NCBI GenBank assembly: GCA_036874045.1
Contig: CM072344.1
Span: 15,968,501 to 16,032,500, forward strand
Direction of reading: 5' to 3'
Source of the DNA: Cymodocea nodosa
Lineage: Eukaryota > Streptophyta > Magnoliopsida > Alismatales > Cymodoceaceae
Length of the DNA: 64,000 bases
Part shown: positions 9,220-61,664 of the stretch, piece by piece
Numbering within the stretch: position 1 is the first letter of the stretch
Layout of the letters: every line of letters begins with the position of its first letter
Position numbers and translations under genes: made by a program
The notes under the pieces: model-generated
What the model was told of the DNA's origin: nothing
The model's input: the letters and a program-made list of their open reading frames with translations, nothing else
The model's database searches: none

Positions 9220-10799
9220 TATTGAGTATTTTGTTTTGATGATGTGTGTTGAATGAAAATAATCATATTTACTCAATTACTATTGCTTGTGAAAAGAAAT
9301 TAAAATAATCAATTAATACAGAAAAAGCTTACTGATATAATACTTGTTTGTATTTGATTTGAAATTATTCTAAGTTAATAACTAGTCATTTCGTTGTATT
9401 AATTTCTCATTTAATTAAATGTTAAGTTAACGTGTGTTTTTAATGAAAAACATGATATGTTTTAAAGTTATATTTTCTGTATCATGAATAGTGCACGTTT
9501 AGACAACTCGTTAAGTTATAGTTTTGTTCGTATAGAGGTCACGTGAGAACTCGTTAAGTTAAATGCTTAAAGGTTAAAATAGGTCACGTGAGAACTCGTT
9601 GAGTTAGTGAGTAAAAGAAGAAAATAACTCGTTAAGTTAGTGTTGTACACGTGGTGAAATTATAAGTTACGAATGTTATATTATATCACGTGAGGTGCAC
9701 ATGTTTAACTTGTTAAGTTAACATAACTAAACGCATTGAGTTGCTATATTAAATACTAAGGCAACGTGTTAGGTTAGCGTTAGAAAACTTAAGTTGTTAT
9801 TTTTGCACATGGTAAAATTCTTATTATAAAAACATTTGTTTATTATTGGTTCGTTAAGTTATTTGTAACACAACAGAGATAGTTCGTTGAGTTAGCTACA
9901 GTACTTGTCACGTGAATTGACACATGAGGAATTCGTTAAGTTAGAAACGTTAAGTTATATATCTACTTGCGTTATTCGTTTAGTTAATATTAAAGTAACG
10001 ATTTCTTATTATACTTGATGAAAAATTTTGGAAGAGAAAGTTTATTTTGTAGGAAATTTTTTAGAGATTTAAGATTAATGATTAAAGAAAATTTGAAATG
10101 TAAACGTGTGTATTTTGATGAAGGAAAAAGAAAAGACGTGAAGAAGTGGAAAACTGGTAGTAATTAAATGTGGAGGATATGTATGAAATGAAGATACAAT
10201 ATAAAAGGCATAGAATTCTCGTTGATCAGTTATCCCTGCACACCAAAAGAAAAATCTTTTTAAAGATTAAAAACACCTCTTCGGGAAAAAGCTCTTAGGT
10301 GGAAGAAAATTCAGTGAAGCATAAAAAGGTAAGATATATGTCACTGAAGATTTGAAGTATCAGATGGAAGAAAATTCAGTGAAGTAGAAAAAGTCAGATT
10401 TATATCATTGAATATCTGAAGTATCAAGAGAAATCAAAATTCGGTGAAGTAGAGAAAGACAAAATATTCGTCACTGAAGAATTGCTGAAGAAGAAAAAGA
10501 AGAAGAAGAAGAAGAAGAAAAAGAAAGATCTCAAACAGGGAGAAATGTTTTAAATTCCGCATATTAGTTTTCTCTATTTGTAGTTATGAAATTGTATAGA
10601 TGAAATATGGTATCGATATATAATTGCATCTACAATTTTTGAGGAGAATTGAATTGTATATTGTAATTGAAACCTTGAATAAAAATGATTTTATGAAAAT
10701 AGTGTCTCGACTCGTTTTTGAGTTTTAAAGTTTCAATTATATTCGAAAATGTTGAAAAACACAATTCACTCCTCTCTTGTGTAGCCATACGATCCTACA
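9220..10799 (+). repeat. copia-1 5' LTR
   Basis: Direct repeat of 22,893-24,447. The first dinucleotide is TA where the 3' copy has TG. It holds many CTCGTTAAGTTA-type motifs (for example near 9,509, 9,552, 9,593 and 9,626) and several CACGTG G-boxes. A purine-rich GAA tract lies near 10,485-10,530. Confidence 0.93.
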
Positions 10800-10998: not shown

Positions 10999-13900
10999 AT
11001 GGCTACTGGAAATGTTAATTTTTCTTTGTATGAAGGCCAAAATCTTAATTGTCCTCCTTTATTTGATGGAATACATTTTGAATATTGGAAATATAGGATG
11101 ACATTTTTTCTTCAAAGTATAGATCATAAGTTGTGGTTCATGATTTTTAAACCATATACTACGTTATCTACCCCTTATAATACTTAGACAATTACTGAAA
11201 AAGAAAATGAAACTCTGAATGCCAAGGGCTTAAATATTTTATTTTATACATTGAGTTATGAACAGTTTAATAAAGTGTCAGCATATAAATTTGCTTATGA
11301 GGTGTGACATGCATCAGAAGTTTTACATGAATGTACTTCTCAAGTTAAAGAGACAAAGATAAACATGTTAATTCATAAGTATGAATTCTTTAAGATGCAT
11401 GAAGATGAAAGTATTTTTGAGATGTTTTCCAAATTTCTTGATATCATAAATTCTTTAAAATGCTTAGGAAAGAATTTTGAATAGAAGGATTTGGTGAGGA
11501 AAATTCTCAGATCCCTAAGTTCTAAATGGTCTTAGAAAGTAACACCAATTGAGGAATCATAGGATTTAAATGTTTATACTATGAATGAACTTATAGGAAA
11601 CTTAATTGCTTATGAAGTTCAATTAAATGAATCACTGAGTCAAAACAAACTAAAAATGAAGAAAGAAATAGCCTTTGAAATTAATTTAGATTTTGATATA
11701 TCTACTGATTCTGATGAGGATTTGATCTTGCTGATTAGGAAATTTAAGAAAGCATGGAAAGCTAGGAAACAACAAAGGAACAAAAATGATAAACCCTCAA
11801 CATCAAAATCACTAAATGACAAAAATTCTTCATCTAGAAAGTATGTATGTTACAAGTATAAGAAACCTGGACATCTTTCTCTAGATTGTCCTATAAGGAA
11901 AAATGAAAAGTATAGTAGGACAAATTAGAAGAAGACGGCTCAGAAAACTCAGAAAAAGTTTTACAAGAAAAGGGCTTTGAAGGTCACTTGGGATGATATG
12001 TCAGAAGAGTCTGAATTTGAGGAATCATCATCAAAATCTTCACATTCAGAAGGAGAACCAGAGTTAGCAAACGTTGCTCTTATGTGCTTCATGACAAATG
12101 AGTCTAAGGTAATATCTGATCTTGAAAGTTATTTAGATTTTAACTTTGATGAATTATTATGTGCTTATCATACATTATTACAAAAACTTAAAGTTTGTAA
12201 ACTGGAAAATAAGAATATTAGAAACTCTTTGTCCATTGTGGAAGAAGAAAATTGTTTCCTATCTACTACTTTAGAAAAGTTTAAATGTGATAATGGAAAT
12301 CATGCTAGAGATTTGCATAAATTTAGATTTAATGAATGTGTCTTGCATGAACAAATATAGAATACAAATGCTGAAAAATTAAAGATAGAATTTGAAAATG
12401 AAGTGTTGAGAAAAAATATAAATGATCTTGAGTTAGAGATTGATAAATTAAAAATGAGAGAGTTAGATTTAAATTCTACCATTGAGAAATGGAATTTAAC
12501 TAGTACCCCTATGGTGTCATATAAATTTGGCTTAGGATTTGATTATCCTAAATATCCTGAATCTCAAGCCAATAAAGGATTTATTAGTTATAGTTCAAGT
12601 AAATCTAAGACTAAAATTCTTTTTATCATGAAACAATGTAATAAATATGTAGAAGTAGGTAATTCAAGGGATGAATCATGTAGTAATAATATAAATCAAT
12701 GTGATTTGTCTAAATGTACTTCTAACATAACTATTAATGTGTCTAAAAATCTTGTTTCTTGTTCTGGAAATTCAGTTTCTAAAATTTCAGACAATTGTAG
12801 TAAACTGAAAATTCAGAAACCAGAGCATGTAATTCAAAACACTAGTGTTAGACTAATTACTCATTCTACATGTGATAAATCTGAAAATTCTTATGCAGAA
12901 AAAGATTTGTATGTACTAAAAATTCAAATACGAGTACAAAATCTTGGTATGAACTTATTGAAATGTATGAGCATGACCAAAATAAATTAACATCTGATAA
13001 AAATCGGTTTGGTCTTGGTTATACTACATCTGAAAACAAAAAAAATGATTATAAGAGCAATAATGCTATAAGTATGATGCTAATGATAAGTCTATAGTAC
13101 TTACAACTAATAAGAATGCAAATGATAATGTTAAACTGTTTTTAAACAAAAAGAAGAAATATGCATTTAAAGAACTTGGTCCTCAACAACGTTGGGTACC
13201 AAGAAAAAGTTTTTCTTAATTTGTTTTGTAGGAGGAAATAACATCAAAATAGATATTGGACAGTGGAACATCAAGTCACATGACCGGACAAAAAAGTCTA
13301 CTACAAAATTTTACAAATACCATGAAAGGAAGTGTAACATTTGGAAACAAAAGCAAGGATAAATTCATAGGTATGGATAATGTTCAGGTAACTCCAACTT
13401 GTGTTATTTTGAATGTACTATATGTAGAAAACCTAGAATTTAATTTGCTGAGTGTTATAAAATTAATTGAGAATGGATACTATGTAGTGTTTGAAGATAA
13501 TGTATGCAAAATTATTGATAAAAATACAGATGAAATTAAGTTTATTGCTAAAAGAAAAGGTTCTGTATGTATTTTATCTTTATCTTCTAGTGTAGTTGAT
13601 TTAAATTCATGTTTGCTAGCTGAAACTAGTGATGCATATCTGTGGCATAGGAGGATCGGGCATATAAATATGAAACTGTTACATAAACTATTTAGAAAAC
13701 ATTTAGTGAGAGGTTTACCAAAGATTAAATACTCAAAGGACTTTATGTGTGATACATGTGACTTAGGTAAACTTCACAAAAACTCTTTTAAATCCAAAAC
13801 TGATATTTCAAGCAAGAGAGTTTTAGAACTTATACATATGGATCTATTTGGACCAACAAGAATCATGAGTCTTGGTGGTAAACGGTATGTATTTGTTTTA

Positions 13901-16334
13901 GTAGATGACTTCTCTAGATACACTTGGATATATTTTCTAGCATCTAAGACATAAGTTTTTGAAAAGTTTAAAATGTTTTGCAATCTTGTTCAAAATGAAC
14001 AAAGTGTCTCTGTTCAAAAACTTAGGAGTGATCATGGTACTGAATTTGATAATGATTAGATGAATAATTATTGTATAGATCATGACATTGATCACAGATT
14101 TTCTTTTCCAAGAGCACCGTCTCAAAATGGTGTTCTTGAGAGAAAGAATAGATCACTTCAGGAAATGGCCAGAACTATGTTGAATGAACATAAATTACCT
14201 TAAAATCTTTGGGCTGAAGTAGTAAATATAGCTTGTTATGTTATTAACAGAAGTCACTTAAGACCTCATGTTAATAAAACTCATTTTGAAATTATGTTTA
14301 ATAAGGTTCCAAAAATTTCCTATATGAAACCATTTAGCTGCAAGTGTTTTATTCTTACTACTAAGGATAAAAGAGATAAATTTCAAGCCAAAGCAGATGA
14401 AGGAATTTTTGTAGGTTATTCTACTAAAAGTAAAGCCTATAGAGTATATAACAAGACTTCTAGAACTATTGAAGAAACCCTCCATGTAAGCTTCAATGAA
14501 AATTCTTTTAGAGAATTTCAATCTAAAGTTGATAATGATGATATGATCAATTTCCCAAAAGAGTTAGAGATCAATAGAGAGATTGAAGATTTATCTGAGA
14601 AAAGCAAAAATATGAACTTAAATGATCAAACTAATGATGAAAGTGACAAACTTTTAGATGTTGATGAGAATATTGAGGAAAATCAAAGAAATTGGCGTTA
14701 TTCTTCATCACATCCCATTACTCAAGTCATTGGTAATATTAATGAGGGAGTTAAAACTAAAGCTTCAGCAAATTTAAGTAGTATGTGTATGTTTGTTTCT
14801 ATGGTGGAACCAAGGAATATAGAAGAAGAATTATCTAATGAAAATTGGATAGTGGCAATGCAAGAAGAACTAAATCAGTTCATCAGAAATGATGTTTGGG
14901 AATTAGTCTCTCCACCAGAAAATCAGTCCATAATAGGTACAAAATGGATCTTTAGAAACAAAACAAATGAAACTGGTCAAGTTATAAGAAACAAAGCTAG
15001 ATTAGTTGCACAAGGGTATACACGGGAAGGACTAGATTATGATGAAACATTTGCTCCTATGGCTAGGTTAGAAAGTATTAGAATATTATTGGCCTATGCT
15101 TGTTATATGGATTTTAAATTATATCAAGCGAATGTAAAGAGTGCATTTCTAAATGGTTTAATTAATGAAGAAATCTATGTAAAACAACCACCTGGATTTG
15201 AAGATATTAAAAATCCTAACTTTGTGTATAAATTGAAAAAAACCTTATATGGTTTGAAGCAAGCACCTAGATCATGGTATGAAAGATTATCTACTTTTTT
15301 AATAGAACAATGTTATATCGTGGGAAAAGTAGATCATACTCTATTTATCAAGAGAGATGGTAAAGATTAGATTGTTGTTCAAATATATGTGGATGATATA
15401 ATCTATGGAGCAACTTTTGAAAAATTGATAAAAATATTTTCTGAAGAGATGACTAGTTAGTTTGAAATGAGTATGATAGGAGAACTTTCATATTTTCTAA
15501 GACTTCAAATTAAGCAAATGGATAAAGGTATATTTTTAAATCAGGAAAAATATGCAGATGAAATGCTTAAGAAATTTAATTTTAATGATACAAGGATTCG
15601 AGGAACTCCTATGAGTACTTCTTTAAAGTTAGATATTGATGACATAGGAAAATCAATAGATCAAAGAAAATACAGAAGTATGATTGGTTCTTTACTTTAT
15701 TTGACAATTAGTAGACTTGATATTATGTTTGCTGTGTGCTTGTGCTAGATTTCAATCTAATCCTAAAGAATCACACTCAAGTGTTGTTAAAAGAATATTC
15801 AGATATATACAAGGAACTAAAAATTTCAGACTGTATTATTCTAAGGATAGTTCAATAGATCTTATAGGATATACTAATGCTGATTATGTAGGATCTAAAT
15901 TTGATAGAAAGAGTACCAGTGGCACATGTCAATTATTGGGAAATAATTTGGTGTCATGGTTTAGTAAAAAGCAAAATTGTGTAGCACTTTCTACTACAGA
16001 AGCTAAATATGTTGCTATTGCACTGTGTTGCACTCAGATTCTGTGGATAAGGCAAACTTTAGAAGATTTTGGATTATCTTATGATACAACTGAGATTTGT
16101 TGTGATAGTAGTTCAACAATAAATCTTTCCAAAAATCCTATATTACATTCTAGAGCAAAGCATATAGAGGTTAGACATCATTTTCTAAGAGATAACGTAA
16201 TTAAAGGAAAAATTAAATTAGGATTTGTGTCTAGTAAAAATCAATTAGCTAATATATTTACAAAACCTCTAGACGAAAATACATTTTGTAACATAAGACT
16301 AAATTTGGGTATTTGTAGGCTATGTGATGTGTAA
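10999..16334 (+). pseudogene. copia-1 gag-pol region (fossil)
   Basis: Gag spans about 10,999-12,990: an N-terminal copia gag segment (LNCPPLFDG...YWKYRM), a CCHC-like knuckle (CYKYKKPGHLSLDC, near 11,850) and a coiled-coil stretch. Protease starts near 13,250 (DSGTSSHM). The GAG-pre-integrase signature LWHRRIGH is near 13,640, and the integrase core (HMDLFGPT, VLVDDFSRYTW) runs near 13,830-14,250. Reverse transcriptase spans about 14,830-15,700 (GTKWIFRNK, ARLVAQGY, QANVKSAFLNG) and RNase H about 15,750-16,330 (TEAKYVA, HIEVRHHFLR, IFTKPL). Domain order is that of Ty1/copia. The region carries several breaks and encodes no full-length protein as it stands. Confidence 0.92.
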
Positions 16335-17690
16335 AATGCTTAAACTCCACAAAAAGATAAATATTGTTGATGATGTTGTTCACCTCATAGGTATTATATA
16401 CTTATCATAAATATCTAAGTAATATCTAAACTACTACTTAAGATACTATGTATTTATTGTAAAATCATAGTAGTATCTTATTGATTTTAAGTGGGTAATC
16501 AATTTTAATGGTTTTCACGATTTTAAGTGGAAGTGTAAATGAAAAACATTAAATATTTCTGAAATTCTGAAATTTTGATTAATTGTTTTCTTTGAATCAA
16601 GGAAATTGCATATGATCATGCATAAATTTGACTTGATTGATTAAACTTGTAGAATAATTTATATGTAAATCATCTTAAATTGTTAATCAAAAGTATGAGC
16701 TTATTGAAACTAATTCATATTTTCAGTAAAATCATAGAAGTAAAAATTGTATGAGATTTGTGTTTTATTACATATGTATTAATGGAATACATATATACTG
16801 TGCTTAAAATGAAAAGTGCTTATAAAGTAAAAATCTTTGAGAGTTTATTGATCAGTTTGATCACAAGTCTTTTATACTTGAGCAAATAGGTATGTAAGGA
16901 TTGTTGTCCTAAAAAGGGATTCTTTAAATCTGGCAACCTAAGGTCCTAATCAGATTTGGGATTGTTGACTGAAAGCTCATTACATGGGTACATTAGAAAG
17001 CTCTTGTATGATTCAAGCTTTTCAAACTAACTTTTAAAGAAAATTATCTATATTTACTGTTTTGAAAAGAAAAAGTTGTTTCATTAATTATAGATATCTT
17101 TGAATCAAATATAGTTTCTACCAATATGACTACTGATTTATTGAATCAACATTAGTACTTTTGAAAACGTTTATTTGAGATACATTCTTTTATTCTCCTT
17201 GAATTAATCATATTGACTTCAAAGTTGTGTTTTGATTCATATACAGTAGGAATTGATTTTGGAAATCATTTTTGATGAATTCAGGATAATAGAAGTTTCT
17301 GAAAAAAAATTTAAAAGAATAGTTATACTTAACATCTATTGTTATACAAGTATATTTTGTATGTTATTGAATATATAAGAAGTATATTTGTAGGGGGAGG
17401 ATTAACAATGTCCAAAATAGATTAATATAATTCAAAATACAAATCTTGGTTAATCTGAATTTAAGTCCTCTTAAGATCTTGATGAAACAATTTAAGAAGA
17501 CAAACAAACTATTTTAGATTCATAAGAAGAGAATGTTAAAATAGTTTACAATGTTCTCAAGATAATGTTAAGTATACCATGTGTGTTATCTTTGGAAGGA
17601 AACATCCGAAACTTTTTTTATAGTAAAGTGTACTAACTAAACGTTATGTTATATAAGGTAACGTGTAAAACTGCCTCTAGATAGCATTTT
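16335..17690 (+). other. copia-1 spacer after pol, with internal PPT-like tract
   Basis: AT-rich and without a plausible coding frame. A purine tract GGGGGAGGA near 17,393 looks like an extra or central polypurine tract, as reported in some large copia elements; that role is inference. Confidence 0.45.
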
Positions 17691-17691
17691 A

Positions 17692-17830
17692 CTTGTTAAG
17701 TTAGTTAACTCAACGAGTTATACTTGAATAATTCGAGTACCTTGATTGAATAAACTATATTCAATACTCATTTAAAATCCAAACCAAACTTATACAAGTT
17801 GAGTTATTCGCCTAAAAACCCTATTTAAAC
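17692..17830 (+). promoter_or_regulatory. Motif cluster and TATA-like box before the copia-1 accessory frame
   Basis: An inverted pair TTGTTAAGTTA / TAACTCAACGA lies at about 17,693-17,716, another GTTGAGTTA near 17,798, and a TATTTAAAC box at 17,822-17,830 preceded by CGCCTAAA. The accessory frame begins at 17,866. The minus-strand leader of the gypsy accessory frame has the same CGCCTAAA then TATTTAAAC arrangement (56,440-56,467). A promoter role is inference. Confidence 0.5.
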
Positions 17831-17865
17831 ACTTATTACACAGGCACTTAGGTTATTCGTAAACT

Positions 17866-19966
17866 TTGTCTGAAAATCTTTCCCGCTTGTTGCTGTTACA
17901 ACCTGCAATGATGGTCTCTAAGTTCTACAAGGGTCATAGTAGAGGAAAAGGCAAAAGTAGAGGAGATGCAAAAGGAAAAGAAATAGATACTAATGAAGTT
18001 CCACATACTTGGTTCAAGAAAATACTTCGAGTAGACAAAAAGTTAACACAAATTTACAGTGAATACTTCTTTCCTCAAGGAATACTAGATGAAGTTAGAC
18101 AAAAGCTTCAAAATACTGATGAAAATATTACATATATGGGTATTCGAAGTAAATATGATAGAGAATACAGAATGAAATGTGTTGAAATTGCATTTTTAAA
18201 ATAGTATGCAAAATATTTGGAAAAAGGTGTTGGTACATCAACTAGAATTCCTCAAATACTTATAAATGGTACAAGATTACATGCATTTGAGGAAGAACAT
18301 GAATCAGCTATCCCTACTCCTTTGTATTCAAAATAAGTAGAATCAAATATTGCTGTAGATAACAGAAAAGTTGACAGTCTTCAAAAGACTATAGCAATAA
18401 AAAGTGCTTTTGAAGAATTAAAGCAGAAAACTTTTATGGAGCAATTTGAAAAGAAAATAACAATACTTGAAGATGAGAAACATAAATTTTATAGAAGGAA
18501 AATCAGAAAAATTATGACTAAGGAAACAAAGTCTGCTGAAAAAGGAAAATCAGATGAACATTTATTTCCAAAGGATAATGTATGTCTAGACATTGTACCT
18601 TATAGTGCATTTGATAAACTCATCAGTTCCGAACATACTGAAACTGATGAAGATAATGAGACTTTATTTTCCCTTGCTAGAAAACTTGAGAAGAAATTGA
18701 AGTCAAATATGAGCTCAAGTTTTTCTATTAGTTCAAGTCTTGATGATGCAGAAATTGACAAATCAGAGCATCAGACACCTGACATTGAACAAGTTATTGC
18801 AGATATAATTGACAATGTTGAGGCAGTAACTAGTTCACAAGCTGAATTGTTTGGAGTAGCAGATATCGAAAAAGTTAAGACTCCAGAAGAGCTAAACGTC
18901 AACCTGCCTTCTTCAAAATCTATAGAAGTAGAGTATGAGAATTCACAGCATGTATCAATGGAGATATCTGTTGAACAAAATGAACAATTACAAATAGATA
19001 CACCGGTTGTAGAATTTGTGGAAAAATTGAACTCTAATAATTTTATAGAGACTGAACAGATGAATGTTGAGCATAATGAAGATGTTCCTTACACTGTTGA
19101 AGTTGAAGAATCAAGCTTACCTAAGCAGCTTCAAGAAAATATTTTCGTAGAGGAACAACATGACATTCATTTTGAAGAAGAAGTTCCTGAAGATGAATTA
19201 AACTCTGAATCACGGCTTTAGGTATCACCTTCTTTGTGTACAGTATTACAAATTCAAGGTAATTCAATTCATTTTAGATCTAAGGAAGCATTGTAGAAAT
19301 ACAATAATCTGATTACATGTCAAATTCTACATGCTCGTCCAATAAAATTCAGAAATTTGATGAAAATAAGAGATCTATTTGAGTTTTAAGGCCTCATTCA
19401 ATTCTTGCCAGTTGGAATGAAATGGAAGCATTACATAGAGCTTATTGTAGCTTTTTATAGCAATCTGGTCAAGAATGAAAATATACTGAAAACTCAAATA
19501 AATAAATAGGAGTTAATATTATCTCCTGAAATAATTTTTGAAGTTTTGAGATTAAAGAATGAAGGTGTTGTTGTTACAAACAGATTTGACATGATTAGAT
19601 AACTAGAATGGAACATTCAGTCTTTATCAAAAATTACAGATGTATATACTAAAATGAGATTAATGGAAAATCTGAATGCAGAGGCAATGTTTATTGCAAA
19701 TATATTGCATGCCAATTTATTTCAGAGAGTTGTACACAATATGGAAGTCAGCAGAAGTTCTTTATATGCAACTTATGGTCTGCTGAATAGAATTCAAATC
19801 AATTGGTTTGATGTTTTTACTTCTCAACTACAACATATGAATTTAAAGTTATTTTATGGTGATGTTGTATGTAGACTCCTTGCAAGCCAATTGAATTTAT
19901 CCGACTAGTCCTCTGAAACTAAAGGCACAAGAGATTTTAGTGTAAATGATTTGTAAAAATTCTAGG
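17866..19966 (+). pseudogene. copia-1 post-pol accessory reading frame (fossil)
   Basis: Frames downstream of pol on the same strand encode a basic N-terminal part (KGHSRGKGKSRG), a long acidic middle rich in Glu, Asp and Ser (18,436-19,221) and a more conserved C-terminal domain with DLFEF near 19,372 and NRIQINWF near 19,786, followed by KLFYG. A frame of the same layout and with these same motifs occurs in the gypsy element at 54.1-56.4 kb. Frame remnants resume after solo LTR A at 22,162-22,360 with a Gln-rich stretch and a short helical C-terminus. No transmembrane segment is evident, so I do not call it env. It may belong to the 'putative plant transposon protein' group, but that is a weak suggestion. 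The copy carries a few breaks. Confidence 0.7.
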
Positions 19967-19971
19967 CTATG

Positions 19972-22161
19972 TGTTTGTGTTTTCCCAGCACTACATCAGA
20001 AAAACTTGGATTTTTTACTTAGTTAATTTATCTTTATGCCTATTCTTTCTTTTAGAAGTAAACAAACAACCTTTAATACAATTTAGATATTAATTCCAAT
20101 TTGTACTTTAACTGCAAGTGCACAGTGTCTATTGTATCAGTGTGTAAGTACAGGTCGATCCCACAGGGAATTGCTGAAGAATTTGAGAACTGTTTGTTTG
20201 TTAACAATCAAATTTGTATTTTCAATAAGCCCTCCGTTGAATTACAGTTAACTTAACAAACAAAGTTCATTGAGTTATGGCTAACTCAACGGACTAACCT
20301 CGTGGACTTCAGTTAACTCCACGAGCCTGTCTTTTCTTTTTAATACTGCTATTTACAAAGGAATTCAGTCAACCATTGGGCGATTCCACAGATTGTAAAT
20401 AACATCAATTAAGCTCTTTAATATTAGTTAACATTGGATTTATCATTAAGCAATACTAACATTTAGATAATTCAAACAGTAACCATTAAAATCTTTAAGT
20501 CTTTTGAACGAACCAATTTCAGTAAACTGTAAAACTAAAATAAACATAAAACAATCACAACACTAATAAAGATAACATTAATCACGATACAACACAAACA
20601 ATACAACACTCAAATACAACATACAAACATAGATAAATTGTTTTTGGTATTTTTGTTTTAATATGAACATGGAAATGGGCGAAAGGTGAAATGTAAAGTA
20701 ATCTCACTTGACAGTAAATACTTCTGACACTACTTGCAACGTGATTACACCACTGAAAATTAAACCACATACAATTCTGTCTCCTCTCCCTATAGAATCG
20801 CGAGTCCAGAATTGCAAGATGATCTCCTCTTCAGCATACAGGCATCAACTTGAAGCCAAGGCTAAAAGCTTTACGATCTCTTGAAATATGAGTCGGCGCT
20901 TGGTGAAAATGACTTCCCTTCCTACGACACGATCACTCCTCACAATGATTGTCAAGCATTGTGTTTGGCTCGAAATCAACCCGACATCAAGAAAGTATTC
21001 TCACAGACCTCCGATGGTTGGTGATTGTGGTAGTGGTAATGATGGTTGGTGTGGTACTTTGGAGAATTGCCGATACTGCCTGCAGAAAGCTCGGTGCTCT
21101 TCCTCTGTACACACTGGCCGTCCATCGATCACACCCTTTTCTTCTTTTTCTTCTTTTCTTTTATATTTCTTTAGTAGTAACTACTTCTGCTTGAATGGTC
21201 AGTTGGATTTCCTTCATTCATATCAATGGCGATGCTTTCTTCTCCCTGCGCGATACGTGTAGTCGTGGTTTTTCTTCCAACTGTCCTATTTCTACAACCG
21301 CTACAGTGGCATATTAGAAAATAAATAGTCCGTGGAGTTACAGATAACTCAACGGACTTTCTTCGTTGATTTAACTATAAAATACGTGCATAAATTTAAC
21401 TATCCGATGCTCAGGTGCATTTTGGATACTTATAAACTTAACTATCCGATGCTTAGATGCATTTCAGATAGTTACAAATAACTCACCGATATATAACTTA
21501 AGTAAATCTACCAGATCTCGACACGTGTCAGCAGTAGCTTAATAATAAAAGAAACATTTCGGAGAGTTACAGGTCTAACTATCCGATGCTCAACTGCACT
21601 TTCGGATAGTTAGAGATAACTCACCAAAAATCCACTTAATTCACTTTTCTAAAACATGACACGTGTCCTCAGCTATTTTATAAATAAAAAAAGATTTCGG
21701 AGAGTTACATATATAACTGTCCGATGTCCAGCTGCAATTTCGGATAGTTATAGATAACTCACCAAAAGTTCACTTAAGCCATACATTATGGTTTTGACAC
21801 GTGTACTTTAGGAAATAATAAAATATTCTTTCAAAACTTAACTGTTCGGTAATTTAAACATAACTATCCGACATGTTCGGTTTGTTAAACATAACTGTCT
21901 GAAATATGTCCGGTATGTTAAACATAACTGTCTAAAATATCAGAAAATTCGGATACTTAAGAATTTCACATCCTGCAACTTACCGACAGTTCAAAAATGT
22001 ACTAAATTAACATTAATTTCCCAAAATTATGCAGATTCTTCAATTAAAGCATATAACAGTGCAATTATAACATAATAGCTTAATTCTCATATGATAAGCT
22101 AAATATTATGCAATTAACCATCATTTAACTGTTAATAATATGCACTTTTTCATTCTAAACA
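19972..22161 (-). mobile_element. Solo gypsy LTR A, nested in copia-1
   Basis: A 2.19-kb solo LTR with a perfect target duplication CTATG at 19,967-19,971 and 22,162-22,166. On the minus strand it runs TGTTTAGAATG...AAACACAAACA, the same family as solo LTRs B and C and related to the LTRs of the gypsy element at 50.5-62.8 kb. It split the accessory frame of copia-1, so it is younger than that element. It contains several CGGATAGTTA / TAACTATCCG and CGTTGAGTTA / TAACTCAACGG motif pairs. Confidence 0.92.
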
Positions 22162-22878
22162 CTATGCATCAACCTCAACAACAACAACTTGATTGTACAA
22201 ACCATATACAACAACAACCAAGTTATTTAGTTCAAGCAGAATAGCAACCCCAGCTACCTCCTGACCTAGATGATGTGCTTAACGACATCAGAAATGATAT
22301 TAGGCATCTAGGAGATAAAATATGTAATACTATAAGTGATATACTTAGAAGAAATAGATAACTGTCTGTTTGCTTGTATCTGATTACAAAATGTAATATT
22401 TGTATTCATTGTTTGATTCATTGAATAATACATTTTTCTGTAAATGTTTACAATTCTTATTCTTGTTTACAAAAAGCGTTGTTGTAAATATATCTCTTAA
22501 TATATATATTCTATGTAATTATCTTTTTGATTAATGACAAAAAGGGAGAGAAAAAGATGATTATGATTTTAATTGTATATATTATAAAGGGAGATGATAT
22601 TTATATGGTTATTGTAATCTGACAAATGATAATGTAATCTGAAAGAAAATTATATGGTTATTAAATTATATAATGAAAGGAAGAGAAATGATACTTATGT
22701 AATTATTGACATCTGAAAGTTTTATTTCTGAGAGGTGAAATTTACACAAACAATAGAAATAAGCTTGAGTGAACTTAAGTCAACAAACTTGTTTGTTGAA
22801 TTAAAAGTTAACCCAACAAAGGTGCTTTGTTGAGTTAAATATATTTCATAATTGATTTAATATGATTTTTTCATCACC
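22162..22878 (+). other. copia-1 distal internal region
   Basis: Holds the end of the accessory frame (Gln-rich, to about 22,360) and an AT-rich untranslated stretch that includes GTTGAATTAAAAGTTAACCCAAC near 22,796, one more inverted motif pair. Confidence 0.6.
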
Positions 22879-22892
22879 AAAAAGGGGGAGAT
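22879..22892 (+). other. copia-1 polypurine tract
   Basis: AAAAAGGGGGAGAT directly abuts the TG start of the 3' LTR. The same tract is used by copia-2 (47,476-47,489, minus strand). Confidence 0.9.
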
Positions 22893-24447
22893 TGTTGAGT
22901 ATTTTGTTTTGATGATGTGTGCTGAATGAAAATAATCATATTTGCTTAATTACTATTGCTTGTGAAAAGAAATTAAAATCATCAATTAATACAGAAAAAG
23001 CTTACTGATATAAATACTTGTCTGTATTGGATCTGAAATTATACTAAGTTAATAACTAGTTGTTTCGTTGCATTAATTTCTCATTTAACTAAATGTTAAG
23101 TTAACGTGTGTTTTTAATAAAAAGCATGATATGTTTTAAAGTTATATTTTCTGCATCATGAACAGTACACGTTTAGACAACTCGTTAAGTTAGAGTTTTG
23201 TTCGTATAGAGGTCACGTGAGAACTCGTTAAGCTAGTGAGTAAAAGAAGAGAAGAACTCGTTAAGTTGGTGTTGTACACGTGGTGAAATTATAAGTTACG
23301 AATGTTATATTGTATCACGTGAGGTGCACATGTTTAACTTGTTAAGTTAACATAACTAAACGCGTTAAATTGTTATATTAAACACTAAGGAAATACGTTA
23401 GGTTAGCGTTAGAAAACTTAAGTTGTTATTTTTGCACGTGGTAAAATTCTTATTATAAAAACATTTGTTTATTATTGGTTCGTTGAGTTATCTGTAACAC
23501 AACAGAGATGGTTCGTTGAGTTGTCTGTAACACAATAGAGATAGTTCGTTGAGTTACTTATAGTATTTGTCACGTGAGTTGGCATATGAGGAACTCGTTA
23601 AGTTATATATCTACTTGTGTTACTCGTTTAGTTAACATTAAAGTAATGACTTCTTATTATACTTGATGAAAAATTTTGGAAGAGAAAGTTTATTTTGTAG
23701 GAAATTTTTCAAAGATCCAGGATTAATGATTAAAGAAAATTCGAAATGTAAACGTGGGTCAGAACGTGTGTATTTCGATGAAGGAAAAAGAAAAAACGTG
23801 AAGAAGTGAAAAACTGGTAGTGATTAAACGTGGAGGTTATGCATGAAATGAAGATATAGTATAAAAGACATAGAATTCTCGTTGATCAGTTATCCTTGCA
23901 CACCAAAAGAAAAATCTTTTTAGGGATCAAAAACACCTCTTTGGGGAAAAACTCTTAAGTGGAAGAAAATTTAGTGAAGTATAAAAAGATAAGATATATG
24001 TTGCTAAAGATTTGAAGTATCAGATAGAATAAAATTCAGTGAAGTAGAAAAAGTCAGATTTATGTCACTGAAGATCTGAAGTATCAGGAGAAAACAAAAT
24101 TCAGTGAAGTAGAGAAAGACAAAATATTCGTCACTAAAGAATTACTAAAGAAGAAAAAGAAAAAGAAGAAGAAAGATCTCAAACAGGGAGAAATGTTTTA
24201 AATTATGCATATTAGTTTTCTCTGTTTGTAGTTATGAAATTGTATAGATGAAATATGGTATCGATATATAATTGCATCTACAATTTCTAAGGAGAATTGA
24301 ATTATATATTGTAATTGAAACCTTGAATAAAAATGATTTTATGAAAATAGTGTCTCGATTTGTTTTTGAGTTTTAAAGTTTCAATTATATTCAAAAATAT
24401 TGAAAAACGCAATTCACCCACCTCTTATATAGCCATACAATCCTACA
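22893..24447 (+). repeat. copia-1 3' LTR
   Basis: Direct repeat of 9,220-10,799, beginning TGTTGAGTATTTTG and ending CCTACA, followed by the target duplication AATAA. It shows the same arrays of CTCGTTAAGTTA-type motifs and CACGTG boxes. Confidence 0.93.
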
Positions 24448-35822: not shown

Positions 35823-35827
35823 AAGAG

Positions 35828-37684
35828 TGTTTAGAATGAAAAAGTGCATATTATTAATGGTTAAATGATGGTTAATTGCATAATATTTAGCTTATCATAT
35901 GAGAATTAAGCCATTATGTTATAATTGCATTGTTATATGCTTTAATTGAAGAATCTGCTTAATTTTGGGGAATTAATGTTAATTTAGTATATTTATGAAC
36001 TGTCGGTAAATTGCAGGCTGTGAAATTCTTAAGTATCCGAAAATACATCTGAGCATCGGATAGTTAGACCTATAACTCTCCGAAATGTTATTTTATGTTT
36101 AAATTGCTACTGACACGTGTCGAGATCTGGTAGATTTACTTAAGTTATAACTCGTTAAGTTAGCATAACTGTACGCGTTGAGTTGCTATATTGAACACTA
36201 AGGCAACACATTAGGTTAGCGTTATAAACTTAAGTTGTTATTTTTGCACGTGTTTTATAGTTAAATCAACGAAGGAAGTCCGTTAAGTTATCTATAACTC
36301 CACGGACTATATATTTTCTAATATGCCACTGTAGCGGTTGCAGGAACAGACAGTTGGAAGGAAAAACCACGTTTGCACGTATCACGCAGGAATTCAATCA
36401 CGTAGGGAGAAAGAAATCATCGCCGTTGATCTGAAGAAAGGAAATCCAACCGACCATTCAAGTAGAAGCAGTTACTACTGAAGAAATATAAAAGAAAAGA
36501 AGAAAAAAAGAAGAAGTGTGTGTGATCGATGGACGACCAGTGTATACAGAGGAGGAGCACTGAGCTTTCTGCAGACAGTATCGGCGATTCTCCGAAGTAT
36601 CACACCAACCATCGTTATCACCATCATAATCACTAATCATCGGAGGTTTGTGAGGATACTTGCCTGATGTCAGGTCGATTCCGAGCCAAACACAGTGCCT
36701 GACAACCACTGTGAGGAGTGATCGCGTCGCGGGAAGGGAAGACATTTTCACCAAGCGCCGACTCATATTTCAGGAGATCGTAAAGCTTTTAGCCTTGGCT
36801 TCGGGTTGATGCCTGTATGCTGAAGAGGAGATCATCTTGCAATTTTGGACTCGCGATTCTATAGGGAGAGGAGACAGAATTGTAAGTGGTTTAATTTTCA
36901 ATGGTGTAATCGCGTTGCAAGTAGTGTCGGAAGTATTTACTGTTAAGTGAGATTACTTTACATTTCACCTTTCGCCCATCACATCAAAACAAAAATACCA
37001 AAAATAATTTATCTTTGTTTGCATGTTGTATTTGAGTGTTGTATTGTTTGTGTTATATCGTGATTAATGTTATCTGTATCAGTTTTATGATTGCTTTATG
37101 TTAGTTTTAATTTTACAGTTTACTGCAATTGGTTCGTACAAAAAACTTAAAGATTTTAATGGTGACTGTTTGAATCATTTGAATGTTAGTATTGCTTAAT
37201 GATAAATCCAATGTTAACTAACATTAAAAAGCTTAATTGATGTTATTTACAATCTGTGGAATCGCCCAATGGTTGGCCGAATTCCTCTGTAAATAACAGT
37301 ATTATAAAGAAGAGACAGGCTCGTGGAGTTAACTTAAGTCCACGAGGATAGTCCGTTGAGTTAGCTATAACTCAATGAACTTAGTCTGTTGAGTTAACTG
37401 TAACTCAACGGAGTGCTTATTGAATATAAATTTGAATTGTCCACAATCAAACATTTCTTAAATTCGTCAGCAATTCCCTGTGAGATTGACCTGTACTTGC
37501 ACACTGATACAATAGACACTATGCACTTGCAGTTAAAGTACAAATTGGAATTAATATCTAAATTGTATTAAAGGTTGTTTGTTTACTTCTAAAAGAAAGA
37601 ATAGGCATAAAGATAAATTAACTAATTAAAAATAGAAGTAACAAATCCAAGTTTTTCTAGTGTAGTGCTGGGAAAACCCAAACA
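35828..37684 (+). mobile_element. Solo gypsy LTR B (mosaic)
   Basis: A 1.86-kb solo LTR, TGTTTAGAATG...CCCAAACA, with a perfect target duplication AAGAG at 35,823-35,827 and 37,685-37,689. It is the same family as A and C but in the opposite orientation. Positions about 36,150-36,250 match the copia-1 LTR instead of the gypsy LTR and replace a longer segment present in A and C. Confidence 0.92.
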
Positions 37685-37864
37685 AAGAGGTTAAGTGATT
37701 TCAAGCTTGAGTCTTGCATGTTATGAAGTATATTTGGTGTTGCTTAGGAACATATTTATATTATGCTTGGATTATTTGTGTCATGTTGTATTATTTGTGT
37801 ATATTATGCTTGAATTTATTGTATAATGTTATGAAATATATGTTATTTTGAAATATGTGTTTTG

Positions 37865-46036: not shown

Positions 46037-47475
46037 TGTTAGGATCGATAGGCTTACTAGAGGAGAGGTGAATGGTGAAGGTGTGTAAGTTTTACTTCTT
46101 TTAATTTAGAACCGACTGATTCTATTAAACAGAGAGTTGAAGTAATTTAAATGGATGCAAACAGTAAGTAGAAAATAACACACAACAAAATTTTAGGTGG
46201 TTCACTAACTCGGCTAGTCTACCCCCAAGATACACTTGGGCTTCACTAAGTAGACAAGTACTTACAACACTTGCTTTCAGGTTGAAGCAAGAACCAACAC
46301 TTAGAGCTTTCAGGTATAAGCTCAATAACCAACCTTTCTTCGAGCTTTCAAGTTAAAGCTCTCAACCAACAATAAGTTTTCAAATTGAAACTCCTGAACC
46401 AACAGCTTTGAATTTTTCTATCAGAGTTTTAGCACAGGGAGCTTTTCTGCTACAGTGAATCTTTAAGAGTATTCTTGAATGTTGTAGACTTGAGAGTGTA
46501 TTTGGAATTTTTTTGTAGCTCACAGCATGATATGATTATTATCTCTATCTGATATTCTCTTCACTTCTTATATTTATACCAAAAGGTATAACGATCATAT
46601 TTTTCTTCCAACGGATGTATTCTACTGTACTTGCTAAGAAATCAGACCTAAATATGGTAAGTTACCATTCAGGAAGGTATTTCAAGATACCCTTCCGATT
46701 TTCTCAAACTTTCGGATAGTTAGTTGTATAACTTTTCGAAGGATGTTTGTAACTTATCGAAAAATCACTTAAGTCTTTTTGCCATGTAGGATTTCAGATC
46801 GTACATATCAGCTGTCATTTGATTGGATACTTGTAACTATAACTTACCGAACTGTCCTTTGACTGTCGGATAGTTAGCTACAGTAACCCATTGAAATCGT
46901 TCTTTAAGATTTCGACTACTTTCTTATTTCAGCACGTGCATAAAAGAATAACTTAAGTTTTGGATAGATAAGTCTGTAACCTTCTGAAAATTCCTGTTTT
47001 TCGGATAGTTAGCTTTCTAACTCACTAAAAAATTCTTTAGACTTTAGTTCTGGATTTCTGCACGTGGAAAATTAAATGACTTAAGTTTCGGATAGTTAGG
47101 CTTTCTAACTTTCCAATTTTCCTTGATCTTTCGGATAGTTAACTCTTTAACTTTCTGATCATTCAACTAACTATCTTTCATAACTCTTCGAAGGCCTTAT
47201 GATTTCGGATAGTTATTCTTCTAATTGTCCGATGGTATTTATGTTACTTTTTACTCTTTAGATACTTAAGCCTGTAACTTATCGAAAATTAACTTTCTTC
47301 TAGATATTTAGGCTTGCTAACTATCCAATTTTATTGTAGCTTTATAGCAGTAATTTCTGAACTACCTATATCTATTTATCTACCTTCCGATCTTTTGCTG
47401 CACTGTCTTATCTGTGAAATACAATATGTTTCCTCACACAAGTTTTTGCATTATCAAAATACTAGAGTCCTAACA
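46037..47475 (-). repeat. copia-2 3' LTR
   Basis: Delimited by TG and CA and by the adjoining PPT on its right side. It contains at least seven copies of CGGATAGTTA or close variants (46,731-47,330), most followed within a few bases by TAACT...CGA in the opposite sense. Confidence 0.88.
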
Positions 47476-50400: not shown

Positions 50401-50548
50401 CATACAGTCACTACACACCCTGTCTTTCTTGAATATAAGTTTAGGTAGTCCCCTGACAAGATCACCCTTGGATAACTTTCTAAGAGTCTTCATACTAATG
50501 TGACCAAGTTTTTTATGCCACAACCAATCATCTTCACTAGATGCTACC
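46037..50548 (-). mobile_element. copia-2: Ty1/copia element, interrupted by the gypsy element
   Basis: Minus-strand copia of the same broad lineage as copia-1. The 3' LTR is 46,037-47,475 (TGTTAGGACTC...GATCCTAACA on the minus strand) and the PPT 47,476-47,489. RNase H and reverse transcriptase span about 47,900-49,300 (SWFSKKQNC; QIDVKSAFLNGEI; YGLKQAPRAWYEKL), integrase about 49,380-50,340 (LDLFGPTQISSLGG; VIVDDFSRLTW; PAQNGVVERKNRT), and the pre-integrase segment reaches 50,548, where the gypsy element begins. The upstream half lies beyond that insertion and outside the window. A few breaks are visible. Confidence 0.9.
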
Positions 50549-51165: not shown

Positions 51166-51169
51166 TACC

Positions 51170-53531: not shown

Positions 53532-53722
53532 TGCTTAATCCACGAACTAACCTCGTTGAGTTACAGATAACTCAACGGAACACAGTCGGTTACTGTTGCT
53601 AACTCCACGGACTAACTTCGTTGAGTTACAGATAACATAACGGAGTAACCTTATATTATATTACTAACCTCGTGGAGTTACGTTTAACTCAACGAAGTAA
53701 GTTAGTTGAGTTAACACTTGGC
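53532..53722 (-). promoter_or_regulatory. Motif cluster before the displaced gag block
   Basis: Three inverted pairs in about 190 bases: CGTTGAGTTACAGATAACTC, a close repeat of it near 53,611, and CGTGGAGTTACGTTTAACTC near 53,661, plus single copies. The next ATG on the minus strand is at 53,507. This is the densest cluster outside an LTR. Confidence 0.5.
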
Positions 53723-54153: not shown

Positions 54154-56378
54154 TTAATCTCTATTCCTAAGTTCATCTACTTCCTTCTGGAGTTTTTCTA
54201 ATTGAAGCTCTAATTGATTAATTCTTTCTATGGCTTCTGAAATTCCTCCAAACGATACAGCTATTTCTACAGCTACAAAATTTCTGTATTCTTTCACTGA
54301 AATGGTTCTGGATTTGATCCTTTTTGATGCCCATTTCGTGAAATCAATACAATCCACCATCAGCAGTGGAATCAAATATCCATAAAATAATTTTTTCTTT
54401 AATGTTTTCAGCTTGGAGATAAAAACTATAAACCAATTTATTTGAATCCTATTTACAACTGCAAACGTGGCCCATTTGACAGATTGACTTAATTCTATGT
54501 CATGGCCTTGTCGTTGATAGACATTCTTAATCAGAATGTTAGCTACCATGTGTGCTTTACCATTTAGATGCTACAGTCTGTTTAATAAAGGCACACCAGG
54601 ATTGATAGCTAAACAATCTTTGATTTCCTGTTCTGTCCAATCAACTACAGTTGTGTCTTTCAAAATTTTTAGTCCTTCATTCTTTAATCCAAAAATGTTG
54701 TGGAGAAGCTCTGGTGTTATCTATACATCTGCTTCCTCCACGTTGGAAATTAATCTTCCTTCACCTTCTCTTAAATTTGCATAAAAACAGGACACTAAAT
54801 TCTCATATACTGCATGCCCTCTTTCTTGAGAAATGAACTTCAGTAGACCTTGGAATTCAAATAAATCTTTAATTTCTTGTATTCCATCCCAATTTACTAG
54901 TCTACTGTAAATAATATCGTAACTCCTAATCTCTTGATATTTGATATAAGCTTCCTGACTCCAAAAATGTACTTCATTCAAAACTGTTGTTTCAGTTGGG
55001 TCAGGAATGTGACTTTGTTGTTCCAGAGGGGTTTGTTCTTGATCTTCCTCTTCTATGGGCTGCATTTGAACATTCTCTACAAATTCCTGAATTTCTGATT
55101 CTGCTTCTGTCTGTGGTGGTGAGCCGGTAGAACTCTCCACTCTATCTTGAATTCTTTCCATAAATTGCTGAAGAGTTTCTTGCTCTTCAGTGGAATTTGT
55201 AAAGTTATTTTTGTCTAAATGGCTTCTTTTAGCCTCTTCATTTTCTACTCTTTCTCCTTCCTCCTGACTACCAATCTGCTCTGTCACTGTTCTTTCTGAT
55301 TCTATAACAGATTGGGATGGAGTCACTAGTAATTCAGTTTCTACCCTAATTTCTGTTTCTTCTTGTACAGGCTGCAAACTAATTTCAGCCTGTTTTTCTT
55401 CTTGTCTTTGCTCCTACTCCTCAGAATCGGATAACAAGTTTATAAAAATTTGCTCCACAGGCCCTATTGAAATTGGTACTTCAGATTTAATTTCCTCTCT
55501 ATATTCAGGCACTTTCTCTTTTCATTTCCTTTTTCTGATTAATTGTGCCTGTTCTTCCTCTTCTTCTTCTGAAATTAAATCTACAAAAGTAGTCTTTGCA
55601 GGCCTTCGAGCCACAGGTACTAGCTCTTCCTATTTAATTCTCTTTATAATTATTGATCTCGAAGGACCAGCCTCTCCTGCAGCACTTGATTTAGTTGCTG
55701 CCTGATGCTGTTCAACTTTTATTTTGTACTGGATCCTCATCTTTTCTTCGACCCTTTTTTTTCTTAATGGCATCATATAAAATATGTGCCTTAGCCGTAG
55801 CTATTTCTTAAGTATCACCTTGGTCTCTTGCTGTTTTGACCAAGCTAGTAAATTCTTTCTCTTCTTCTTTAGTTCTCGGCCAAGCAAATGCTACTTGTGG
55901 CAATGGCTCTAATGGCTGAACTAGAGGTCCTGACTGCTGTTCCTCAGGAATAGGTCTTTCAGTAGTCGGTTCTTCCTGTTCTCCTACTCGTTGTTACTCC
56001 CATATTATCCAGCTTCCTCGACCAGCAATGCATTTTTTAAACCACAATCTGGCTTTACGCTGAATTAGCTCTAGGGCTACTTCATTGTTTGTCCGGATTT
56101 TTCTTTCTTTACTTATTGCAATTTCAGTTGCCACTCTAATTCGTGTCTCCATTATCTATGGTATTTGTATTTCTAACTCAACCAAAACTTTCCTCAAGTT
56201 AAAGAGTTCTGATTCTACCTTTTGTAGCTCTTTCTCTCTTGTTATATTCCGAATCTTTTGCTGCATGTGCCATTCTTCTGATTCCTTCAAAAGCTGTGCG
56301 GTGTCAACTGCATCTTCCCAGAATTCAGGTGTCATCTTCCTCATCGTGGAGTTACACAACAGCACGGAATCACTCTGA
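54154..56378 (-). pseudogene. Gypsy post-pol accessory reading frame (fossil)
   Basis: Same layout as the copia-1 accessory frame: an N-terminal segment with a helical part (near 56,160-56,365), a long Glu-rich middle (54,721-55,800), and a C-terminal domain with KDLFEFQGLLKF, NRIQINWF (near 54,453) and KLFYG, ending in a short leucine-rich coiled coil (LELQLEKLQKEVDELRN, near 54,170). No membrane segment or signal peptide is evident, so an envelope role is not supported. It carries a few breaks. Confidence 0.7.
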
Positions 56379-56439: not shown

Positions 56440-56880
56440 GTTTAAATAAGCCCTAAGTTTAGGCGGATAATCAGGTCATTTCCCGAACCAACTATTACTA
56501 TTTTATCTGCGGTCTTAGCTACAGTACTCCGTTGAGTTACAGTTAACTCAACAGAATAAACTCGTTGACTAACTCAAGACTGAATGGAGTAAGCTCTTTG
56601 AGTTAAGCGTAACTCAACGGACTTCCGATACAAACTAATATAATAATAAAAATACTACAGATAATAGTTTTTCTATTTTTTTACCGGTTTAACCGATACG
56701 ATGTTTCGGTCAGACCTAATTCTTTTCTAGTTGAATTGATACTATGTTTCGGTAAAACCAACATTTTTTTTTGAAAATTAATATTCATATTTTTTTTATA
56801 TTTCGGTCATACCGATGGATCTAATCGGTTGAACCACAACACTTTTTATATTTTATATTTTTTTAATATTTTTTTTTATA
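56440..56880 (-). promoter_or_regulatory. Leader of the gypsy accessory frame
   Basis: On the minus strand, from far to near: TTCGGTCANACCGA-type motifs (56,690-56,850), several inverted GAGTTA / TAACTC pairs (56,526-56,625), CCGCCTAAA (56,458-56,466) and TATTTAAAC (56,440-56,448), then the frame. The last two elements have the same order and close spacing in front of the copia-1 accessory frame. Confidence 0.5.
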
Positions 56881-60428: not shown

Positions 60429-61640
60429 TTACTTTTTAGGAATTTGTGGTAGAAATAAGGAACTACTTTGCTCAGCTAAAAAGACCTTTCTAAGAATTTT
60501 TCGCTCTCTTTTCTTAGTACACCAATCCTTTAGAAATTTAGCACAATGTGGCATTTTCTGCAATAGATCTAACAAAGGAATGTTAGCTTGTACTTTTTCA
60601 AAAATTTCTCTGATTTTTTCTTGTTTTTCAGGTATTGTTTGTTGTAATCTTTCAGGATAGGGTGCTAAAGATTGTGATTTAAGAGATTCTTTTTCTTTCG
60701 GTTGATTTGTTTGATCATTTTTAGCTTCATTAGCAAATTCAGATTGTTCTTTAGTGATTTCTAGATTTTCAACTATTACATTTTCATTATCATTTTGATT
60801 TTTACTCTTATCCACCTTCATATTATTTTCATTTTGAGTTCTTGGTGGTATATCAATTCCAGATCTTAATGTTACACATACATCTTCCAGATTTTCGTTA
60901 CTCTCATAATGTTTTTGTATATCATTTTCATGATTATGATCTTCAATTGTTTTTAGTTTTAAAGTGCATTCTCTAAATTCTCTTGCATTAGTGTTTTTTG
61001 TTTGTTGTATATTTTGCAAATTATGCAGGTTTATAACATTATAATTTTCATCGTCCTGTTGCATAACTTGTATTTTCATTGTATATTTGTCTAATGCTTT
61101 TAGTTTTCTTTCCAAATCATCTAATCTCATTGCATTCAATTTTTGATCAATTTTATTTATGGTTTTTTCAGTTTCGTAAATTATATCCTTTTTAGGTTCT
61201 GAATATGCTTCCCTATAGTTTAATTGGTTGACTTCTTGTTGCTGACACATAAAGTGTTCTAATTTGTCTAGGTTTTTCTCTATACTACGCTCCAGTCTGT
61301 CATACCTATCCCAAACTTCAGTGTCTCTCAACATATTACACATTCTATACTGACCATCAGTTGGGTAAACTATAGGATTCTCATACTCGTCTCCATTATA
61401 CTGAGGATAATTCATTTGTTGTTCATGGGATCTAACCATCTATAAATGTCTCAGTTTCAAACAGTCAAAATTGTTGTGTCCTTCAGAATTGTAGAATTCA
61501 CATATGCTAATTACAAGTTTCAGAAATCTTTGAGCATAAGCATATGCCATATTCTCAATTATAGAAGAAAACAAATAACTCTGGCTATTAAAACGAAACA
61601 GCTCTAACAGTTGCTTATATCTATTCAATTCTATTCAATT
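60429..61640 (-). pseudogene. Gypsy 5' gag-derived segment (fossil)
   Basis: Directly after the PBS a short frame (61,440-61,628) contains CEFYNSEGHNNFDC, a decayed CCHC zinc-knuckle-like motif. It is followed by a 336-residue frame (60,429-61,439) rich in Asn, Glu and Lys with coiled-coil stretches, ending LPQIPKK before the protease. The usual gag core before the knuckle is not here. Confidence 0.6.
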
Positions 61641-61657
61641 CCCCAGCAACGATGCCA
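61641..61657 (-). other. Gypsy primer-binding site
   Basis: TGGCATCGTTGCTGGGG on the minus strand, seven bases from the LTR end. It matches the Athila/Tat-type site TGGCGCCGTTGCCGGGGA at most positions. Confidence 0.75.
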
Positions 61658-61664
61658 TAAAACT

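Follow-up and report, generated by a model that had tools for sequence, protein, structure and literature searches.

The locus studied here raises the question of how retrotransposons of two superfamilies came to carry a similar additional gene, and what this gene may do. In the 64,000-nucleotide stretch of Cymodocea nodosa DNA that was analysed (the window), a Ty1/copia element on the plus strand (copia-1) and a Ty3/gypsy element on the minus strand both have an accessory open reading frame (aORF) after pol. The initial annotation ascribed one layout to the two frames, together with a shared leader, and proposed that a cassette of leader plus frame had moved between the elements.

The two elements and their accessory frames

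We found copia-1 to be one complete, old Sirevirus insertion with its own LTRs, PBS and PPT and with the AATAA duplication at both ends. Its parts were located as follows:

9220..10799, plus strand: 5' LTR, preceded by the AATAA target duplication and followed by AGTGG and the PBS TATTAGAGC
13256..16334, plus strand: pol in decayed pieces (GAG-pre-integrase, integrase core and RVT_2 by Pfam, and an RNase H region)
17392..17399, plus strand: upstream copy of the Sirevirus PPT AGGGGGAG
17908..19971, plus strand: first part of the aORF, starting with ATG at 17908, with in-frame stops and 15% D+E
19225..19962, plus strand: shared C-terminal domain, copia copy
19972..22161, minus strand: solo LTR of a gypsy-type family inside the aORF, with the CTATG duplication at 19967-19971 and 22162-22166
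22167..22361, plus strand: remainder of the aORF, with a Gln-rich stretch, a helical tail and one in-frame stop
22883..22890, plus strand: terminal PPT, 10 bp 5' of the 3' LTR
22893..24447, plus strand: 3' LTR, with AATAA directly after

The two LTRs share 92.8% identity outside gaps and differ by 95 transitions versus 13 transversions, an excess of transitions that is expected for methylated plant DNA. The PBS, set off by the five-base spacer AGTGG, is one transition away from the Sirevirus PBS TATCAGAGC, and the terminal PPT is followed by AT and then TG. The linker has two PPT copies (17392 and 22883); PPT and PBS marks, including more than one PPT, are used as Sirevirus criteria, and the accessible text of PMC2829016 gives four as the mean PPT number. 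The segment 15717-16334 had no Pfam match and was named RNase H from its position after RVT_2.

The copia frame had been placed at about 17.7-20.0 kb. An aORF is indeed present there, but it ends only at 22361 and is split after 19971 by the 2.2-kb antisense solo LTR, which is related to the LTR of the window gypsy element. Since the tail picks up again at 22167, past the solo LTR, copia-1 owned its aORF before this insertion. The same Gln-rich and helical tail was read 3' of the domain at the host loci L024 and L014, and the tail was also found at L022. The possibility that the copia-1 copy is simply an inserted piece of a gypsy element was ruled out: copia-1 is complete in itself, and the sole gypsy DNA found inside it is the solo LTR, flanked by a CTATG duplication of its own.

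The gypsy element, read on the minus strand, comprises the following parts:

54154..56344, minus strand: gypsy aORF; in-frame stops, frameshift near 55.7 kb
54157..54978, minus strand: shared C-terminal domain, gypsy copy, with a coiled-coil-like tail; PF20167 at 21 bits
57504..61439, minus strand: pieces of integrase, RNase H, reverse transcriptase and gag, the first three by Pfam
61640..61657, minus strand: PBS, tRNA-Asp-like, TGGCATCGTTGCTGGGGA

The Pfam matches were RVT_1, RNase H and integrase, and the segment 60432-61439, whose match was sub-threshold, was named gag from its position. The element's own LTR is a partly lost remnant at 61661-63000. The PBS resembles, with transitions, the tRNA-Asp consensus, and it may be of the Athila/Calypso type. 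For the Calypso group, the PBS is described as lying a few bases past the LTR and as complementary to tRNA-Asp (PMC1142308). The window further contains an F-box domain frame (51173-51670, minus strand) flanked by the gypsy accessory frame and a gypsy-type LTR fragment (50546-51168), a second gypsy-type solo LTR (37929-40128) with an ATACT duplication on both sides, which adjoins an inverted related LTR (35826-37685), and a Glycosyl transferase family 8 piece (28388-28990), which probably represents a host gene or what is left of one.

The shared C-terminal domain and its spread in the host genome

The copia segment 19225-19962 (plus strand) and the gypsy segment 54978-54277 (minus strand) aligned without gaps over 234 aa at 32% identity (blastp E 2e-43, in a one-sequence search space). 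The Smith-Waterman score of the domain was 370, in comparison to 34 +/- 6 for shuffled sequences (maximum 63, n=500), and tblastn of the domain against the whole window gave about 1e-38, with no third copy in the window at E up to 1. The motifs DLFEF, NRIQINWF and KLFYG occur in this order in both copies, as had been reported, with a stop codon after DLFEF in the copia copy; the similarity is not limited to these motifs and covers the domain of ~234 residues. The acidic middle was likewise seen in both frames. An accessory coding module is common to elements with separate pol genes.

The proposed common layout held for the C-terminal domain, the motif order and the acidic middles, but the similarity of the N-terminal and middle parts stayed within shuffle range (alignment score 86 vs 59 +/- 11, maximum 95, n=200). 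Profile comparison of the N-terminal parts gave a probability of 0.2%, that is, no detectable relation; for the domain it gave 100%, a value that is not independent because both profiles had gathered copia and gypsy copies alike. As to the leader, its words have 3 occurrences each in the window (both strands), at a spacing of 5 vs 9 nt, and include a TATA-like word:

17822..17830, plus strand: TATA-like word TATTTAAAC, about 88 nt 5' of the copia frame and at the same place in 3/3 copia copies
56440..56448, minus strand: TATA-like word TATTTAAAC in the gypsy leader, with TATTTATA instead in 7/11 gypsy copies

Exact CGCCTAAA was present in 2/3 copia and 2/11 gypsy copies, and exact TATTTAAA in 3/3 copia and 2/11 gypsy copies. 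Leader homology was dropped, as blastn at E 0.01 gave no mutual leader match and the words are poorly kept across copies. To judge from the sequences, what the copia-1 and gypsy frames share is one domain and not a leader-plus-frame cassette, since the N-terminal parts have no detectable kinship and the leader match reaches barely beyond the TATA-like box; the idea of such a moved cassette was not borne out.

Kinship of the domain with Transposase_32 (PF20167) is clear, while the window copies stay short of formal membership. The window gypsy copy scored 21.2 bits (E 2.8e-4) against a curated cut-off of 45 bits, the window copia copy had no Pfam match, and an open copia copy (L045) reached 24.1 bits (3.8e-5), also under the cut-off. 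Six members of a seven-member alignment (five copia copies, L012 and the window gypsy copy) matched PF20167, the best at 2.4e-11, and the genome search gave 14 matches, the single one passing the cut-off being the L012 locus with 45 bits. Protein database searches yielded no relative among 655 and 814 candidates, and the viral contigs searched gave none either. Among solved structures there was nothing convincing; the best match, at E 0.083, was a designed protein.

Both frames belong to abundant families: the host genome (375 Mb) contains no fewer than 150 close copies of each. All 150 scored copies matched the copia domain query at 82-87% identity (11,755 first-look candidates), and 150/150 matched the gypsy query at 85-91% (12,109 first-look candidates), the window's own copies excepted. 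Many of the scored copia frames had no stop and were open up to 787 aa. The domain recurs beside both kinds of pol. Twelve further copia copies were chosen by us from along the 150 listed, with 641 bases fetched for each, and copia RNase H was found at the expected upstream distance in eight (82-91% identity); the remaining four showed a gypsy gag in one case, another copia gag in one, and nothing in two. Around the 14 Pfam loci, taken with 10 kb around, near same-strand gypsy pol pieces lay upstream in nine. The other five were L012 with distant gypsy pol, L024, where copia gag is followed by pol pieces and then the aORF, and L014, L020 and L022, which were nested or unresolved. A further candidate copia family, L051/L023, was suggestive at most, since RNase H was not found between RT and frame.

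In the copia domain, dN/dS was 0.16-0.60 (28 pairs from 8 copies, stop codons skipped), indicating that the domain has been kept as a protein. The RNase H yardstick gave 0.33-2.80 (21 pairs with very low dS) and was too little diverged to inform. Measured between one pair of copia copies (L045 and L047 against L035 and L036), synonymous divergence was higher in the accessory domain (0.080) than in RNase H (0.016), as though the accessory gene and pol differed in their history. Long open Transposase_32-like frames were also seen at L052 (2723-4900) and L053 (3456-4943), with no match to the copia or gypsy pol queries in the 5-kb stretches that were fetched; they could belong to other transposons or to a host gene.

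Palindromes in the LTRs and beside the accessory genes

Two repeated palindromic motifs, RM1 and RM2, were found in these elements, RM1 also beside the accessory frames:

17694..17715, plus strand: RM1 palindrome 5' of the copia aORF, with 2 mismatches and a 2-bp gap; 3/3 copia copies have a similar one at -214 to -217
56528..56621, minus strand: RM1 palindromes with a 4-bp gap, upstream of the gypsy aORF
53555..53713, minus strand: RM1 palindromes downstream of the gypsy aORF
46712..47215, plus strand: copia-2 LTR region with RM2 (half-site TCGGATAGTTA); no aORF is seen in copia-2

RM1, CGTTGAGTTA-N4-TAACTCAACG, has 8,305 exact copies in the genome, with 0 for the control, and often recurs in 33-bp steps among the matches listed. 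It marks the LTRs and aORF flanks of copia and gypsy families. Counted with up to 1 mismatch and set against the mean of 60 shuffles, its half-sites numbered 17 vs 0.18 in the copia-1 LTRs, 4 vs 0.07 in the copia linkers, 17 vs 0.23 in two gypsy-type solo LTRs and 14 vs 0.15 in the gypsy linkers; each gag-pol had 1 or 0, and none was counted in copia-2 or in two stretches beyond the annotated elements. With a 9-base half-site and one mismatch, copia gag-pol held 3 of 97 sites, copia-2 held 2, and 4 lay elsewhere. Six RM1 sites fetched from contig 1 were all in or between gypsy-type LTR pieces, and the window gypsy LTR remnant (61661-63000) contained one RM1 palindrome.

An RM1 palindrome (gap 2-4, up to 5/20 mismatches, seen in at most 2% of 100 shuffles per copy) was present no more than 400 nt upstream of the aORF in 15/15 copies whose start could be read (3 copia, 12 gypsy). 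Downstream, RM1 was found within 1.2 kb in 12 of 13 copies, including 10/10 for gypsy. On the copia side the downstream RM1 was poor: L024 had none, that of L014 was at 1.15 kb, and the matches of copia-1 lay inside the inserted solo LTR.

RM2, TCGGATAGTTA-N0..10-TAACTATCCGA, has 814 copies in the genome, again with 0 for the control, and its gap is mostly 6 among the matches listed. It was also present at 21397-21871 and 39365-39837, in gypsy-type LTRs, and its half-sites numbered 30 vs 1.5 for shuffles in two gypsy-type solo LTRs and 14 vs 1.0 in the copia-2 LTR region, with no exact half-site in the window gypsy LTR remnant (61661-63000). By these counts, each motif is common to one copia family and to gypsy-type LTRs. 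As copia-2 has RM2 in its LTR and no aORF, the motifs need no accessory gene in the same element, and our earlier statement that copia-2 was free of palindromes was withdrawn. Also withdrawn was L022 as a second copia family with gene and RM2; it is a copia-2-type element beside an aORF fragment, with the RM2 array in the LTR. The RM2 of L060 falls in copia-2-type LTR sequence as well.

Palindromes in LTRs and upstream of an ENV-like gene are known from Sireviruses (Bousios 2010), and RM1 has both placements. In the accessible part of that paper, linker palindromes occurred in 9/9 of the palindrome-bearing Sireviruses with ENV and in 0/4 without (13 elements in all), nearly all of them upstream of ENV, while six ENV-bearing Sireviruses were without such palindromes (PMC2829016). 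Unlike those motifs, RM1 has no CGG-CCG core, and both RM1 and RM2 also occur in a gypsy family each; RM2 (TCGGAT...ATCCGA) does have the core. Two CGGT-ACCG palindromes akin to the published Sirevirus motifs were seen at 56685-56814, between gypsy pol and the accessory frame. In the openly available literature on env-like genes and palindromes in Sireviruses and Athila elements (subscription papers lay mostly outside), no palindromes common to copia and gypsy elements were reported, and we found no earlier report of a sharing such as that seen here for RM1 and RM2; Transposase_32 in an Athila accessory frame has been reported before.

Origin and possible role of the accessory gene

A tree was built from 25 copies, with one copy of 64 residues left out; a single branch (100/95) divided the copia-linked from the gypsy-linked domains. 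In a second tree, also of 25 rows from this one genome, to which seven wider relatives without known pol and one row gypsy-like by identity were added and from which 8 main-group rows were removed, the copia and gypsy groups were sisters (99/97). L022 and L023:1-526 were labelled from neighbours later seen as nested or doubtful, and several other rows from identity to the window copies; L022, labelled copia in both trees, has its domain in the copia group whatever its neighbour. As the groups are separate sisters, the event is old and not a local swap. A shared origin of env-like genes has reportedly been proposed in print already: Du et al. 2010 (Plant J 63:584) are said to have argued for a single ancient origin, the copia genes being derived from gypsy. 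In 2012 the accessible text of the MASiVEdb paper called the origin of the env-like gene of Sireviruses and some gypsy elements unknown and its function unproven (PMC3414828).

The LTRs also share a stretch of sequence across the superfamilies:

9706..9811 (also 23335-23440), plus strand: ~106-bp block in the copia-1 LTRs, common to a gypsy-type LTR
36148..36252, plus strand: ~106-bp block in the gypsy-type LTR 35826-37685, 87.7% identical to the copia-1 block

The block was not found in the solo LTRs 19972-22161 and 37929-40128; whole or in part, it occurs in or adjoining gypsy-type LTR sequence of L026, L028, L029 and L031, and also in the copia locus L024. The simplest reading is that DNA passed between LTRs of the two superfamilies, which are usually kept apart; a single gypsy subfamily may instead have inherited the block as a nested fragment. 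A recent jump of leader plus frame between copia-1 and the gypsy element could appeal to this passage, to the common domain and to the coinciding leader words. For the present copy it is contradicted by the leader and N-terminus without detectable homology, the identity of only 32% and the separate sister groups, and we give it hardly any credence. Separate capture of the domain by each lineage from a host gene or another transposon, which concerns origin and not function, gains from the other Transposase_32-like frames of the genome, with L052 and L053 long, open and without matching pol queries; it is nevertheless unlikely, as the copia and gypsy groups are mutually closest (99/97) among the 25 rows of this genome. 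The sequences thus point to a domain that was probably exchanged between the superfamilies long ago rather than captured in parallel.

As to function, we tentatively regard both frames, with a probability of about 0.4, as 3' accessory (env-like) genes of Sirevirus and Athila-like gypsy elements whose homologous domain belongs to a putative RM1-binding regulator. The protein would be made from its own promoter adjoining the frame, would enter the nucleus, and would pair into a dimer through its helical tail; the dimer would bind RM1 palindromes in the LTRs and beside the frame. By analogy with VANC of VANDAL transposons, the bound protein would increase the transcription of its own element or keep it from being silenced, and it could serve copia and gypsy elements alike. 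Nuclear localisation was predicted for a PF20167 frame of Athila (PMC11728184). The ORF(+) of sunflower Athila 14 resembles the present frames in its domain, in lying after pol and in being read in the sense direction, as far as it is described in PMC11728184; the domain reported here is also in a Ty1/copia Sirevirus, and the window copies are below the Pfam cut-off. VANC proteins are described as binding short repeated motifs (PMC5735166), and the proposed likeness lies in an element-encoded protein and short motifs repeated in noncoding parts. The VANDALs differ in being DNA transposons with domains DUF1985 and DUF287, for neither of which the accessory frames had a Pfam match, and no sequence kinship was found. 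Against a regulator of this kind, both elements use RM1 despite unrelated N-terminal parts, and the palindrome gap before the frame is 2 bp in copia and 4 in gypsy. The RM2 of copia-2 and the six ENV-bearing Sireviruses that have no such palindromes (PMC2829016) count against it as well.

It is nearly as likely that RM1 and RM2 are targets of a host transcription factor, the elements having gained or swapped these sites for expression in the same tissues, and that the accessory protein does other work, e.g. in the particle, in import or in silencing suppression. This would fit the presence of RM2 in gypsy-type LTRs and in copia-2, which shows no aORF, and the finding of mainly stress-factor sites in Sirevirus palindromes, as given in the accessible part of Bousios 2010 (PMC2829016). 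It fits less well with RM1 upstream of the accessory frame in 15/15 copies, or with Sirevirus motifs that vary among host plants (Table 3, PMC2829016, in its accessible part), although a common CGG-CCG core is stressed there. Palindrome-rich LTR regions of maize Sireviruses are described as small RNA hotspots (PMC5311732), which agrees with the accessory-protein and the host-factor readings alike. A true envelope or movement protein for cell-to-cell transfer, suggested by the place after pol and by the tradition of env-like naming (as described in PMC7264820), seems very improbable in view of the Transposase_32 similarity and of a hydropathy never above 1.33 in either frame (19-residue windows; the copia tail 22167-22361 was outside this test). 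The initial annotation had likewise noted no membrane segment, and the MASiVEdb authors, in the text available, say that the gene may not be a true envelope (PMC3414828). Sirevirus ENV-like genes are described in the same source with transmembrane domains, none of which was seen here, the comparison being one of descriptions. The ENV-like gene of SIRE1, ToRTL1 and MtRetro3 likewise lies between pol and the 3' LTR, with palindromes upstream in some, according to the accessible text of PMC4093653.

One accessory gene type on unrelated retroelements is also described, in the accessible part of PMC5408684, for the extra ORFs of bdelloid rotifers, which differ in protein families and hosts. The domain and the palindromes together suggest that elements of very different kinds may be under a common control system. 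With at least 150 copies per superfamily, a common domain and matching palindromes at the gene and in the LTRs, this one host genome turns the vague question of the env-like gene into a simple question of binding.
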